NCBI GenBank assembly: GCA_903853285.1
Contig: CAINTF010000137.1
Span: 1-11,992 of the forward strand
DNA length: 11,992 bases
Origin: an uncultured Acidimicrobium sp.
GTDB lineage: Bacteria; Actinomycetota; Acidimicrobiia; Acidimicrobiales; Ilumatobacteraceae
Reading direction: 5' to 3'
The notes under the pieces were generated by a model. That model worked only from the letters and a program-made list of their open reading frames with translations. It was not told where the DNA came from and did no database searches. Of this stretch, positions 8,084 through 11,992 are shown one piece after another; positions within the stretch are counted from its first letter, which is position 1; each line of letters opens with the position of its first letter. The position numbers were made by a program, and so were the translations under genes.

Positions 8084-8347
8084 ATGGAGAGTCTTGCTCG
8101 TCTCGTAGCGATCATTCTTGGAGCTGCGCTTGGTTCAGGAATCATTGCAGTCTTTTTGTGGCGTAAACCACCACACAATGGGATAGTTCGCGCAGTGTTG
8201 GTTGTACTGATGTTGCCCGTGATGTGTATTGGAATATTTCTTGCCTCTCTCTCCGTTGGCATTGGAGTGCGCGCTCTAGGAGTCGCAATTTTTATTGCAG
8301 CCGTACTTGCAACAAAGTCGATGTTCGCTCGGAAGAATTTGCACTAA
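8084..8347 (+). CDS. Small hypothetical membrane protein
   Basis: An 87-residue protein I do not recognise. It has three hydrophobic stretches, about residues 5-26 (LARLVAIILGAALGSGIIAVFLW), 34-57 (IVRAVLVVLMLPVMCIGIFLA) and 62-78 (GVRALGVAIFIAAVLA), joined by short loops with RKPPHNG between the first two. A basic tail (FARKNLH) suggests the C-terminus stays in the cytoplasm by the positive-inside rule. It starts 18 bp after the aconitase stop with no clear ribosome binding site, so it may be read from the aconitase mRNA. The hydrophobic pattern, not similarity, supports it over the antisense frame at 8071-8262. Confidence 0.6.
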   Translation: MESLARLVAIILGAALGSGIIAVFLWRKPPHNGIVRAVLVVLMLPVMCIGIFLASLSVGIGVRALGVAIFIAAVLATKSMFARKNLH

Positions 8348-8357
8348 ACATCAGCCA

Positions 8358-8473
8358 AGAAATGGGAAAGGCCCCACATCTCTGCGGGGCCTCTCAACCT
8401 AAGAATCCTGTGGCGGGGGAGCCACATTTTTGGATTCTGTCGGGCGGGCTCTGGGGGGAGCCCACCGCGATAT
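8358..8473 (-). ncRNA. Candidate 6C-like small RNA (two C-loop hairpins plus terminator)
   Basis: Read on the minus strand, this gene-free DNA folds by eye into three hairpins in a row. The first (8463-8446) has the stem GGGCTC/GAGCCC around a loop with six consecutive C. The second (8438-8402) is AGAATCC, five A as a bulge, TGTGGC, the loop TCCCCC (five C), GCCACA and GGATTCT: 13 pairs in all, fully complementary. The third (8392-8369) is a GC-rich terminator. The actinobacterial 6C RNA family is defined by two stem-loops each carrying about six C in the loop, and its mycobacterial member acts in trans on G-rich ribosome binding sites. Promoter-like boxes lie just upstream. Ends are estimates: start near 8473, end in the U-rich tail near 8358, about 115 nt. 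The strand choice rests on the C-rich loops and on the T-rich tail being on this strand. The second loop has five rather than six C, so membership needs a covariance-model test. Confidence 0.65.
8369..8392 (-). terminator. GC-rich rho-independent terminator of the 6C-like RNA
   Basis: AGGCCCC (8392-8386 read on minus) pairs perfectly with GGGGCCT (8375-8369): 7 bp with a 10-nt loop, followed on the minus strand by TTTCCCATTTCTT. On the plus strand it is followed by CTCAACC without a T run. It is thus better as a minus-strand terminator, although the stem may also halt transcripts leaving the small membrane-protein gene 22 bp away. Confidence 0.65.
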
Positions 8474-8479
8474 GTAACT

Positions 8480-8509
8480 AGTATGCCCTACCCGTGGGTA
8501 AGCGCGCAA
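8480..8509 (-). promoter_or_regulatory. Promoter-like boxes for the 6C-like RNA, with a palindrome in the spacer
   Basis: On the minus strand TTGCGC (8509-8504) and CATACT (8485-8480) are separated by 18 nt and would place transcription start near 8473, just before the first C-loop hairpin. Each box matches the sigma-70/SigA consensus only moderately. The spacer contains a perfect interrupted palindrome, TACCC-GT-GGGTA (8489-8500), where a repressor could sit. Confidence 0.4.
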
Positions 8510-8528
8510 GGCGAACGACACGATATCC

Positions 8529-8549
8529 CCTATCTATTTTTAAGATAGG
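8529..8549. promoter_or_regulatory. LysR-type regulator binding site (ATC-N9-GAT)
   Basis: CCTATCT (8529-8535), seven A/T bases and AGATAGG (8543-8549) form a perfect 7-bp inverted repeat. It contains ATC-N9-GAT (8532-8546), the classic LysR-family recognition pattern, and the looser T-N11-A motif. It lies 30 bp upstream of the lysR start, as expected for autoregulation, and is centred about 66 bp upstream of the predicted start of the divergent small RNA, the usual position of a LysR recognition site at a target promoter. Confidence 0.6.
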
Positions 8550-8579: not shown

Positions 8580-9527
8580 ATGGAGATTCGCCACTTAGCC
8601 AGCCTGATCGCAATTGCCGACCACGGCTCGTTTTCGGGTGCCGCTCGGGCCCTCGGAACCGTGCAAAGTAACGTCTCCGCCCATATCTCTCGCCTTGAAA
8701 AAGACCTGGGAGTCGCCCTGGTCGAGCGAAATGGTGGTGCGCTCACCGAAGAAGGTGTGGTCGTAGTCGAACGCGCTCGTCGAATAATTCACGAATTACA
8801 AGACATTGAGGCCGATGTTCATTCAAGCGACACCGAAGTTGAGGGCGAGACACGCCTCGGTTGCATTGGAACCACCGGGCGGTGGCTCATGCCTCGACTT
8901 CTTCCAGCACTCAAAAAATCTCACCCCCTCGTGCGCGCCATCATTCACGAAGGCGGCACATCCAGTCTCATACCGCGCGTCTTGAGTGGAGAACTTGATG
9001 CCGCGATAGTCCACTTCCCTGTTGATGATCCCGAATTAGTTCTTGAACCATTGTTTTCCGAAGATCTTGTGTTGCTCGTACATGCAAAACACAAATGGGC
9101 CACACTTGAAACAATTACGATCGCAGAACTTGTGACCGAACCAATCTTGCTCGCACCACGCAATACTGCGCTTCGAAAAATTATCGATCGTGCGGCAGGC
9201 GCACAACGACTTGCCTTTACTGCGCAAGCAGAAATCGACGGAGTGCGACTACTCACTTCACTCGCATTCGAAGGATTTGGGCCAGCAATTGTTCCTGCAA
9301 CCGCTATTCCTGGATGGCTCAAAGGTGAATTCGTGCGCGTAACTATTCCAGAACTTCCGCGACGAGTGGTTGGATGGGCTTCGCGACGACGACCAATTCC
9401 TAACAAATCGACTCGTGCAGCACTTGAAGTCACCAAAAATGTTGTTGCAAAAAGTGGAGATCGCCAGCCTGGAGTAACTACGGCTCTTGTTTCACCCAGT
9501 CAAACTTCGTCTACAGTCAAGGCGTGA
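8580..9527 (+). CDS. LysR-family transcriptional regulator
   Basis: A 315-residue LysR-type regulator. The N-terminal winged helix-turn-helix covers residues 1-60 (MEIRHLASLIAIADHGSFSG, then AARALGTVQSNVSAHISRLE, then LTEEG), followed by a linker helix (60-85) and a periplasmic-binding-protein-like effector domain from about 90 (TRLGCIGTTGRWLMPRLLPAL) to about 285. Residues 290-315 are a Ser/Thr-rich tail outside the fold. ATG 8580 gives the standard LysR start; GAGGA lies only 2 nt before it, an unusually short gap, so initiation may be weak. TTG 8562 would add six atypical residues. Its TGA overlaps the ATG of the carboxyltransferase gene by one base (TGATG), so the two are very likely co-translated. 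The usual mode is autorepression and inducer-dependent control of neighbours; candidates here are its own operon and the divergent small RNA. The effector is unknown. Confidence 0.93.
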   Translation: MEIRHLASLIAIADHGSFSGAARALGTVQSNVSAHISRLEKDLGVALVERNGGALTEEGVVVVERARRIIHELQDIEADVHSSDTEVEGETRLGCIGTTGRWLMPRLLPALKKSHPLVRAIIHEGGTSSLIPRVLSGELDAAIVHFPVDDPELVLEPLFSEDLVLLVHAKHKWATLETITIAELVTEPILLAPRNTALRKIIDRAAGAQRLAFTAQAEIDGVRLLTSLAFEGFGPAIVPATAIPGWLKGEFVRVTIPELPRRVVGWASRRRPIPNKSTRAALEVTKNVVAKSGDRQPGVTTALVSPSQTSSTVKA

Positions 9528-10897
9528 TGGGATTGAACAGCAAAGCATCGATCCCAGTCCAACTGCAACAAGCGGTTAAAGGCGCGGTCAGCGCTGAAGT
9601 GCGATTACTCAGCGAATCGCAACGCAACGTTGTTTGGGTTGAAATTGATCCGACAGTCCATTTCGGAGCGCTCTCCGCAGATGCATCTGGCGTCATCGCA
9701 AACGCAGCGACGACAGCACTCAATCAACGCTTGCCGCTCGTGTTGTCCATGGCATCATCCGGAGCCGACATTCTTGGAGGAATAGACGCATTATTTGGAT
9801 GGGGTCAAGCTGCGCGAAGAGTCGCAATGTGTTCCGGCATCGTTCCTATTTTTACCATCGTGACCGGTCCTGCTGTGAGCGGCCCAGCACTACTCATAGG
9901 TCTGAGCGACTTTGTGATCATGACCAAGGATTCGTATGCATTTGTATCCGGCCCCACCATGGTCGCCGAATTCACTGGTATCACAATGACCAACGAAGAG
10001 CTTGGTGGCACCGATGCTCACTCTCGACAAAGTGGTGTTGCGAGTTTGGTCGTTGCAGATGTAGAGAGTGCACTCATTGCACTCGAACAACTGCTCTCAT
10101 TTATTCCGGACAATGTAGACAACGTTGCTCCTCATGTTGCAACCAATGACCCTTCAGATCGCCTTACGCCTGAAGCTGGCGCAATTATTCCCGACACTGC
10201 AACGGGCAGTTACGACGTGCGTAAAATCATTCGGGCCATCGCCGACGACGCAGACATGCTCGAGGTACGCGAAAGCTGGGCGGCCAATGTCATCACCGCG
10301 TTCATCACTATCGATGGTGAATCAGTAGGCGTGGTCGCCAATCAACCAATGGTGCTGGCTGGCACGCTGGATATTCCTGCTTCACAAAAGGCTGCTCGAT
10401 TTGTTTCGTTCTGTGATGCCTTCAACATTCCCCTGCTCACACTTGTTGACACGCCAGGTTTTTATCCCGGCAAAGACCTGGAATGGCGCGGCATGATTCG
10501 ACATGGAGGACAACTCGTCTTTGCATATGCTCGTGCGACTGTGCCCCGCGTTTGCGTCATCCTCCGCAAAAGTTATGGAGGCGCCTACATCGTTATGGAC
10601 TCAAAAGGCATGGGCAACGACTTATGCATGGCTTGGCCAAGTGCGGAACTTGCGGTCATGGGTGCTGGTCAGGCTGCTGCGATCTTGCAACGACGTGCGA
10701 CACCAGAAGAGCGTGCAGCATTCGAAGCCGACTACACCGAGCGCCTACTCAACCCTTATGTTGCTGCCGAGCGTGGATACATCGACGCAGTCATTAACCC
10801 TGCGGAAACACGACGTGAAATTTCGGCTGCATTCACTATGTTGCGCGACAAGCGCGAGCGACTCCCTGCTCGCAAACACGACAACTCGCCCCTGTAG
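9527..10897 (+). CDS. Acyl-CoA carboxylase beta subunit (carboxyltransferase), N-terminally short
   Basis: Family members move the carboxyl group from carboxybiotin to an acyl-CoA (acetyl- or propionyl-CoA), working with a biotin-carrying alpha chain that is not in this window. The 456-residue protein matches the AccD/PccB crotonase-like double domain. The C-terminal half is canonical: VGVVANQPMVLAGTLD, VDTPGFYPGKD, the oxyanion motif RKSYGGAYIVM, AWPSAELAVMGAGQAAAI, LLNPYVAAERGYID, and a basic end similar to PccB. The residue after GGAY is Ile355; in Streptomyces coelicolor this position is Asp in PccB and Ile in the acetyl-CoA-accepting AccB, which hints at a wider substrate range. The N-terminal half is divergent: the usual opening of about 75 residues (TARERI...GSF) is absent, GGARIQEG becomes SGADILGG, and GPCAGG becomes GPAVSG. 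It cannot be extended, because an in-frame stop lies at 9425-9427 with no start codon in between except GTG 9524. Coupled to lysR by a one-base overlap. Confidence 0.88.
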   Translation: MGLNSKASIPVQLQQAVKGAVSAEVRLLSESQRNVVWVEIDPTVHFGALSADASGVIANAATTALNQRLPLVLSMASSGADILGGIDALFGWGQAARRVAMCSGIVPIFTIVTGPAVSGPALLIGLSDFVIMTKDSYAFVSGPTMVAEFTGITMTNEELGGTDAHSRQSGVASLVVADVESALIALEQLLSFIPDNVDNVAPHVATNDPSDRLTPEAGAIIPDTATGSYDVRKIIRAIADDADMLEVRESWAANVITAFITIDGESVGVVANQPMVLAGTLDIPASQKAARFVSFCDAFNIPLLTLVDTPGFYPGKDLEWRGMIRHGGQLVFAYARATVPRVCVILRKSYGGAYIVMDSKGMGNDLCMAWPSAELAVMGAGQAAAILQRRATPEERAAFEADYTERLLNPYVAAERGYIDAVINPAETRREISAAFTMLRDKRERLPARKHDNSPL

Positions 10898-10962
10898 CGA
10901 GGCAACCGCTAAACTCGTACGTGGGGACAGGAAGCTCCTCATCAAAATTGAAGGGAATCAAG

Positions 10963-11992
10963 ATGGCTGAAACAATCACCATCATCGATGACCGAACAGG
11001 CAAAAAAGTTACTGTTCAAGTCAAAGATGGCGTCTTTGCCTCATCGGCGCTACGTGAACTCGATCCGAATCTTCGGATGTATGACCCAGCCTTTTTGTCG
11101 ACAGCAGCATGTGCGTCATCCATCACCTATCTAGATGGTGAAGCAGGAATTCTGCGCTATCGCGGTTACCCAATCGAACAGCTTGCCGAAAAATCAACCT
11201 TCCTTGAAGTCGCTTACCTCCTACTCAAAGGCGAGCTTCCAACAAGCCAGGAATTAGAAGCCTGGAATTTCGAAGTCACTCATCACACGATGATTCACGA
11301 AAACATGCGCAAGCGCTTTGTTGACGGCTTCCATTACGACGCACACCCAATGGGCATGTTTATTTCCGCTATCGCAGCTCTTGGAACCTTTTATGACGAT
11401 TCCAAAAATATCTTCGACGAGGAAGTACTGAATAAGCAGATCCGCCGGCTAGTCGCCAAAGTTCCAACCATCGCAGCAATGACTTACCGTTTCTCGTCTG
11501 GATTGCCATTCGTGTTGCCAAACAACTCGATGTCATACGCACAGAACTTTCTCAACATGATGTACCGCATCGGCGATGACTACACAGTGCATCCAGCACT
11601 TGCTCGCGCAATGGATGTGTTGTTTATTTTGCACGCAGATCATGAACAAAACTGTGGCACGACCACGATGCGAGTAGTTGCGTCATCACATGCCGATCCG
11701 TATTCGGCGACTGCAGCAGCTGCGGCAGCGCTGTCTGGCCCACTCCACGGTGGTGCTAACGAAGCAGTGATTCGCATGCTCACAGAAATCGGCGACATTA
11801 AGAATGTTCCTGCATTCGTCGAAAGCGTTAAGGCTGGCGAAGGCAAGCTCATGGGCTTTGGTCATCGCGTGTATAAGAACTACGACCCGAGGGCGAAGAT
11901 AGTCAGAAGAGTGGCAGAAGACGTCTTTTCAGTGTGCGGCCGAGAGGAACTCATCGACATCGCAATGGCCCTGGAGAAAATCGCCCTGAGCG
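10963..11992 (+). CDS. gltA: Citrate synthase, C-terminally cut by the window edge
   Basis: Condenses acetyl-CoA and oxaloacetate to citrate, the entry step of the TCA cycle. 343 codons are visible of about 430 expected for the long bacterial (GltA) type, which has the small N-terminal beta domain seen here (TITIIDDRTGKKVTVQVKDG). Motifs: LDGEAGILRYRGYPIEQLAE near residue 57, LHADHEQNCGTTTMR (about 225), SGPLHGGANEAV with His262, and GFGHRVYKNYDPRAK with His301. These match the two histidines of the His-His-Asp catalytic triad; the Asp lies beyond the edge. ATG 10963 is preceded by GAAGGGA at 10950-10956, a good ribosome binding site 6 nt upstream. A 65-bp gap after the carboxyltransferase stop has TAAACT (10910-10915) as a weak -10 and no clear -35 or terminator, so read-through from the lysR operon is possible. 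From about 11881 Arg codons change from all CGN to mostly AGR. Confidence 0.96.
   Translation, partial: MAETITIIDDRTGKKVTVQVKDGVFASSALRELDPNLRMYDPAFLSTAACASSITYLDGEAGILRYRGYPIEQLAEKSTFLEVAYLLLKGELPTSQELEAWNFEVTHHTMIHENMRKRFVDGFHYDAHPMGMFISAIAALGTFYDDSKNIFDEEVLNKQIRRLVAKVPTIAAMTYRFSSGLPFVLPNNSMSYAQNFLNMMYRIGDDYTVHPALARAMDVLFILHADHEQNCGTTTMRVVASSHADPYSATAAAAAALSGPLHGGANEAVIRMLTEIGDIKNVPAFVESVKAGEGKLMGFGHRVYKNYDPRAKIVRRVAEDVFSVCGREELIDIAMALEKIALS

Follow-up and report, generated by a model that had tools for sequence, protein, structure and literature searches.

Divergent pairs of a regulator gene and a small RNA gene include OxyR/OxyS and GcvA/GcvB. At oxyS, the first OxyR site is centred at -66, a further site lies nearer the promoter, and the extended consensus for LysR-type proteins is CTATA-n9-TATAG (all from the consulted part of PMC5002191). 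A different resemblance is offered by the C-loop RNAs of actinobacteria. According to the consulted sections of PMC4046766, 6C RNAs have two stem-loops that typically carry six C residues each, and C. glutamicum is a known carrier. The B11 RNA has three stem-loops, one of which is a terminator hairpin with a C-rich loop. In M. marinum, repression depends on this terminator loop, which base-pairs with G-tracts close to ribosome binding sites; loop 2 is dispensable, and loop changes combined with compensatory mRNA changes support base-pairing (consulted part of PMC12395582). In M. abscessus, either C loop alone suffices in the case of eccB4 (consulted part of PMC10470900).

The window examined here, meaning the whole stretch of 11,992 nucleotides, comes from a freshwater bacterium and contains a candidate small RNA gene with three hairpins on the minus strand at positions 8352 to 8473, where the 5' end is inferred from a -10 box and the 3' end from a terminator. 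The feature is real and is conserved far above chance. Hairpin 1 (8440 to 8470) presents six C residues in its loop (8453 to 8458) and has a bulged C and a G-U pair in its stem. Hairpin 2 (8402 to 8438) has 7 + 6 base pairs, an A5 bulge (8427 to 8431) and the loop UCCCCC, with its five C residues at 8415 to 8419. Hairpin 3 (8364 to 8399) is terminator-like, has the loop AGAGAU and is followed by AUUUC, which amounts to a weak U tail only. All three hairpins lie on the minus strand and are supported by both folding and alignment. For the reverse complement of 8350-8490 the folding energy is -67.3 kcal/mol, compared with a mean of -45.1 for shuffled versions (sd 4.05, z -5.48), and none of 200 shuffles equals its energy.

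The first-pass annotation had described much of this architecture. Its C6 loop, A5-bulged stem with a C5 loop and GC-rich third hairpin are all present in the fold, and its proposal of an independent small RNA gene on the minus strand is supported, here with a length of about 120 nucleotides, C-rich loops and strong compensatory change. The 5' end it gave, 8473, agrees with a promoter-like -35/-10 pair. Other parts of the description need to be qualified: there are three hairpins as claimed, and hairpin 1 is not perfect; the U-rich tail exists in a weak form; and the placement between acn and lysR is right on the lysR side, the left neighbour being not acn itself but an 87-amino-acid ORF downstream of it. 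This hydrophobic ORF (8084-8347, plus strand) is matched in 8 of 47 family loci, its own included, and has no Pfam family above its cut-off.

When the window was scanned with Rfam at low thresholds, the only matches were BjrC68 and GlsR7, both at chance level, and the best explanation is that this RNA is not represented in Rfam. The BjrC68 match (RF02353, described by Rfam as a Bradyrhizobiaceae RNA) lies near the terminator hairpin and scores 22.0 bits against a cut-off of 39, with a best score of 27.7 bits in 20 family loci. It draws on the GC-rich terminator, and we judge it to be due to chance.

There are many representatives of this RNA in the Ilumatobacteraceae. An initial DNA search of 100 genomes, including the genome of the window, yielded 28 matches, and 26 of these entered the first alignment. 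One match was dropped as spurious (L028, with 22 bases and no motif), and another (L026) was excluded since the contig end falls inside the RNA. With a covariance model, R1, built from eight of these sequences, the RNA is detected in 192 of the 221 family genomes, in 74 of the 79 good ones and in all 27 genera, with E-values that are rough for this model and for model R2 used below. No R1 match at E<=0.01 was obtained in 29 of the 221 genomes (5 of the 79 good ones), and genus g9 is weak with R1, its best E-value being 8.6e-5.

Compensatory change among relatives, which the first-pass annotation had proposed as a check, is extensive. In an alignment of 45 members, which was fitted to R1 and is hence biased towards the R1 structure, 94.8% of cells are paired and 33 of 39 pairs have changed on both sides. 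The covariation score of these 45 members is 0.557, compared with 0.039-0.078 on slid alignments, and none of 500 shuffles attains any of five covariation measures. In the RNAalifold structure of an unfitted MAFFT alignment, both partners have changed in 14 of 26 pairs. The C-rich loops named in the first-pass annotation are likewise typical: a run of CCCC or more occurs in loop 1 of all 45 aligned members and in loop 2 of 44, the window having C6 and C5. The A5 bulge, which had been suggested to mark a variant, is not a mark of the family. A C run of this length is also found in the terminator loop of 26 of the 45 members and is absent there in the window. In one member (L068) a UUCG tetraloop replaces the second C loop, and C runs are retained in loops 1 and 3.

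The exact terminator motif occurs in 61 named contigs, whose titles include Acidimicrobiia, Acidimicrobiales, Ilumatobacteraceae, Acidimicrobium, Actinomycetota and Actinomycetes; two of them are acIV. Three odd titles among the 61 (two Bifidobacterium breve and one Acidobacteria) are probably misnamed MAGs. It is from contig titles of this kind that the family name used here is derived. Where at least 150 nucleotides of upstream sequence are available, a divergent LysR gene lies within 450 nucleotides in 56 of 58 contigs, and the box described below is present in 57 of 58.

The putative promoter region of the RNA has a conserved architecture that was read from the sequence and the alignment. 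On the minus strand there are a promoter-like -10 box, CATACT (8480 to 8485), and a -35 box, TTGCGC (8504 to 8509), separated by an 18-bp spacer. Further upstream lies a LysR-type dyad, CTATC-N9-GATAG (8530 to 8548), whose centre at 8539 corresponds to -66 from the inferred start at 8473, and seven nucleotides from the dyad there is a third half-site (8522 to 8524, ATC on the minus strand), identified by the alignment and by a test across loci. The dyad is close to the extended LysR consensus cited above. In the family alignment, ATC, GAT and ATC are invariant upstream of the -35 box and their spacing is nearly fixed. The complete box is present in 20 of 21 family loci and 50 of 60 order loci. 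With the -35/-10 pair picked by best score and the start inferred from the -10 box, the dyad centre lies a median of 66 from the start, both in family loci (quartiles 66-67) and in those outside the family (66-66). This LysR-type box, and with it the proposed control of the RNA, is a new point that went unnoticed in the first-pass annotation.

In most order loci outside the family, the first half-site shares bases with the LysR start codon, as judged by eye, and LysR therefore probably limits its own expression too. In the genus of the window the LysR start codon is further away, although the dyad is still present. Across the phylum, the exact promoter pattern, with zero mismatches allowed so that its absence carries little weight, occurs in 2 of 296 genomes: one belongs to the order, and the other, G275, to another order of the same class. 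The G275 locus (L246) has a LysR relative with 38% identity, the same box and a ACTGTTGGACAGAT element; no C-loop RNA was seen there, and by eye the reading frame on the divergent side resembles WhiB.

The LysR-type regulator gene itself (8580 to 9527, plus strand) diverges from the RNA, and its true start is probably the ATG at 8580. It is followed by a carboxyltransferase gene with a Carboxyl_trans domain (9524 to 10897, plus strand) and by gltA, encoding citrate synthase (10963 to 11991, plus strand), which runs off the window and probably starts at the ATG at 10963 and not at the GTG at 10921. Of 47 family loci, 46 have a LysR gene adjacent to the RNA and divergent from it, and the remaining locus (L026) is truncated by the end of its contig. 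The carboxyltransferase gene is normally found downstream of lysR in family loci, and gltA is present in 18 of the 20 longer family stretches. The gene acn is in view at 21 of 47 loci, although 27 of the 47 span only about 1.5 kb per side. Thus, the RNA and lysR form the constant unit, and acn and the RNA do not.

The LysR protein is also widespread in the order, where a relative at E<=1e-45 is found in 195 of 248 genomes, with a single match in each. A search of 99 genomes from another order of the class gave no LysR match at E<=1e-25, an empty answer that is not proof of absence. Among 82 aligned LysR sequences there is no column with Cys in more than 15%. The absence of a conserved cysteine in this alignment makes a small ligand likelier than redox sensing, and the neighbouring genes would point to acyl-CoA or citrate metabolism.

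Outside the family, 60 loci were chosen by hand from LysR matches so as to spread over families, and the sample is therefore non-random. There is at least one C5-loop hairpin 60-300 nucleotides from the LysR start in 47 of these 60 loci, with at least two in 22 and at least three in 7. Shuffled versions of the same loci have at least one hairpin in a mean of 8.4 cases (maximum 16) and two hairpins in a mean of 0.5 (maximum 3), and control counts are 2 of 60 for G-loop hairpins and 3 of 59 for the next stretch. A looser hairpin descriptor, loosened after misses had been seen, raises the count to 49 of 60. The pattern ATC-N9-GAT-N7-ATC occurs in all 49 loci with C-loop hairpins and in 1 of the 11 without (Fisher 1.5e-10); in that one (L195), which the descriptor missed, C-loop hairpins are visible by eye. 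Since a relaxed version of the first two half-sites is found nearly everywhere (58 of 60), the third half-site is the part that goes with the RNA.

The family model R2 gives matches at E<0.01 in 25 of the 60 outside loci, with a best score of 42.1 bits, compared with 12.1 bits at most in 30 control loci. A whole-genome search with R2 identifies 20 of 298 order genomes, 12 in the family itself and 8 elsewhere. Among these eight outside matches, three (L118, L120 and L121) are beside LysR, and two (L117 and L122) have C-loop hairpins and no LysR within the stretch examined. The remaining three (L119, L123 and L124) were set aside as chance-like by eye. That a blind search reaches only eight outside genomes indicates little sequence similarity outside it, and the case outside the family thus rests on the LysR-anchored loci. 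In other words, the case outside the family thus rests on the LysR-anchored loci.

This RNA has several features of 6C and B11: it is short, occurs in actinobacteria, carries C-rich loops on its hairpins and includes a terminator hairpin. The first-pass annotation called it 6C-like, matched its layout to the 6C family and proposed scoring it with the Rfam 6C model; membership of 6C is not supported by this test. The RF01066 cut-off of 47 bits is not reached, and the locus differs, with LysR as the neighbour and not HAD-IB. There is no RF01066 match in the window at E<=1 and none in its own genome, which is 82% complete, at E<=10. The best scores are 33.0 bits in 20 family loci and 36.8 bits in 20 order loci, all below the cut-off. 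Across the phylum, RF01066 matches 36 of 396 genomes, with none in the order and one in the class (G583, 36.5 bits). However, 4 of 14 control genomes match at E<=10 and none of these exceeds the cut-off; even C. glutamicum, a known carrier, falls below it, so the RF01066 score alone cannot exclude distant kinship. We therefore call the RNA 6C-like in its presumed working, not a tested member of 6C, and it differs from 6C further in having a LysR-type box in its promoter.

One possibility is that this RNA is true 6C that has been relocated, such that a single ancestral actinobacterial C-loop RNA now resides beside HAD-IB in part of the phylum and, in Acidimicrobiales, beside LysR. We regard this as an idea worth keeping that is still somewhat doubtful. 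The loop type is the same, many relatives have a C loop in the terminator hairpin, and one RF01066 locus (L094 in G453) likewise has three C-loop hairpins instead of two. R2 reaches up to 27.9 bits on RF01066 loci, 14 of 30 of which match at E<0.01, whereas none of 30 control loci exceeds 12.1 bits; the scores on RF01066 loci may reflect a common layout or distant kinship. The sub-threshold score of C. glutamicum also fits this idea, as does the failure to find 6C in the order where it would be expected. Among RF01066-found loci, 25 of 30 are divergent from a HAD-IB hydrolase, including 18 of the 19 above the cut-off, a neighbourhood observed in the loci analysed here and not a published definition. 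At 30 loci of the closest order relatives of the HAD-IB gene, there is no close pair of C-loop hairpins; a C5-loop hairpin lies on the divergent strand in 7 of them, with 3 stretches being shorter than 500 nucleotides, and one locus (L229) has two such hairpins that are 121 nucleotides apart and more than 700 nucleotides away. On the other side, every score of the RNA lies below the cut-off and no common neighbour is seen. A HAD gene beside several order loci was considered as a shared neighbour; it is a relative with 31-40% identity and a longer frame, and it was rejected as evidence of homology because a closer relative (about 44-56%) sits elsewhere. Finally, in sequence the two RNAs have only C loops in common, and short hairpins could acquire those independently.

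With respect to OxyR/OxyS, the likeness is one of arrangement: a LysR-type gene diverges from a small RNA gene, with a dyad at -66 and a further site nearer the promoter, as in the consulted part of PMC5002191. However, the RNA is unrelated to OxyS, carries C loops and belongs to another phylum. OxyR requires two redox-active cysteines and the LysR protein here has no conserved cysteine, which argues against peroxide sensing through an OxyR-type disulphide. The NCBIfam OxyR model scores the protein at 114.8 bits, with a cut-off of 329.

Taken together, we consider it probable that the locus encodes a trans-acting C-loop small RNA that the divergent LysR-type regulator controls directly. In this scheme LysR would bind the dyad at -66, and with an inducer it would also occupy the third half-site nearer to the -35 box, turning the divergent promoter on, so that its role at this promoter would be activation rather than repression. 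The predicted transcript would end at a terminator of its own. The C-rich loops, two here and three in many other genera, would be held on stable stems and would pair with G-runs of ribosome binding sites, and this pairing would block translation; such a mode has been shown for B11/6C in mycobacteria. The retention of loops on changing stems fits a B11-like use, though the genus of the window has no C run in its terminator loop, which distinguishes it from B11 even as 26 of 45 family members and many order loci have one there. This counts against the model, since in M. marinum the key loop of B11 is the terminator C loop and its loop 2 is dispensable.

RsmY-type RNAs act as protein sponges, and the C loops might similarly bind a protein and not mRNA. 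A sponge would be laid out in this way, with near-identical UCCCCCA loops recurring on stems and becoming more numerous in some genera, and the search for mRNA targets gave none. We nevertheless find a sponge unlikely, because the best-studied look-alike, B11, supports base-pairing in the consulted part of PMC12395582. No C-loop-binding partner is known to us in actinobacteria. A still more improbable reading is that there is no trans product at all and that the element acts only in cis, as a bidirectional terminator between the 87-amino-acid ORF and lysR. Hairpin 3 is a strong inverted repeat and R1 matches weakly on the opposite strand there, as this would predict. However, the gene on the terminator side varies as the LysR box, the promoter-like boxes, the C-loop hairpins and the terminator stay, and the loops are kept while their stems change, for which a terminator has no need.

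The trans-acting RNA that we favour should have targets with G-runs. The 8-mer GGGGGAGC, which is perfect to both loops, has 14 sites in the genome of the window, compared with 7 for the backward control pattern. Two of the 14 are the RNA gene, one is another hairpin, seven are inside ORFs of at least 100 amino acids and four are antisense to such ORFs; this search of the genome thus gave no clear leader target. The G run of the gltA leader, proposed earlier as a target, proves to be a weak candidate, as its length ranges between GGG and GGGGGG and some relatives lack it, and judging from the sequence the gltA leader is at best one candidate target. In the window (10923-10938) and in family loci, this leader has a small hairpin of the type GGGGGAGAAAGCCCCC shortly after a -10-like box, and the letters of its stem change across genera.

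A second conserved hairpin was observed elsewhere in the genome (G000:C218:6819-6939; L316 and L322, with relatives L323-L341). It lies between a divergent histidine kinase gene and an OmpR-like response regulator gene, both labelled by eye, and displays the loop AUGCUCCCCCUUG on the histidine-kinase strand. Of 61 genomes searched, 22 have a match to this hairpin, and each of the 22 is among the 23 of its own genus; 6 loci scanned against Rfam gave nothing at E<=1. The mismatches of one strand are G-U pairs on the other, which favours the C-loop strand.

In the literature consulted, which included few subscription papers, no description of a small RNA regulon was found for these mostly uncultured actinobacteria (acIV and its kin). 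A family-wide covariance model, a defined, predicted promoter and a candidate regulator are now provided, and they make it possible to test how C-loop small RNAs are controlled and whether the name 6C covers a single family or more than one. We tentatively suggest that a metabolite-sensing LysR of central carbon metabolism, encoded beside carboxyltransferase and citrate synthase, and a C-loop RNA may form an ancient regulon of Acidimicrobiales. Such a regulon would stand in actinobacteria as an independent parallel to both OxyR/OxyS and 6C. Within it, changes in C-loop number, from one to three or more, would have occurred repeatedly and would set the reach of a single regulator directed at G-runs.
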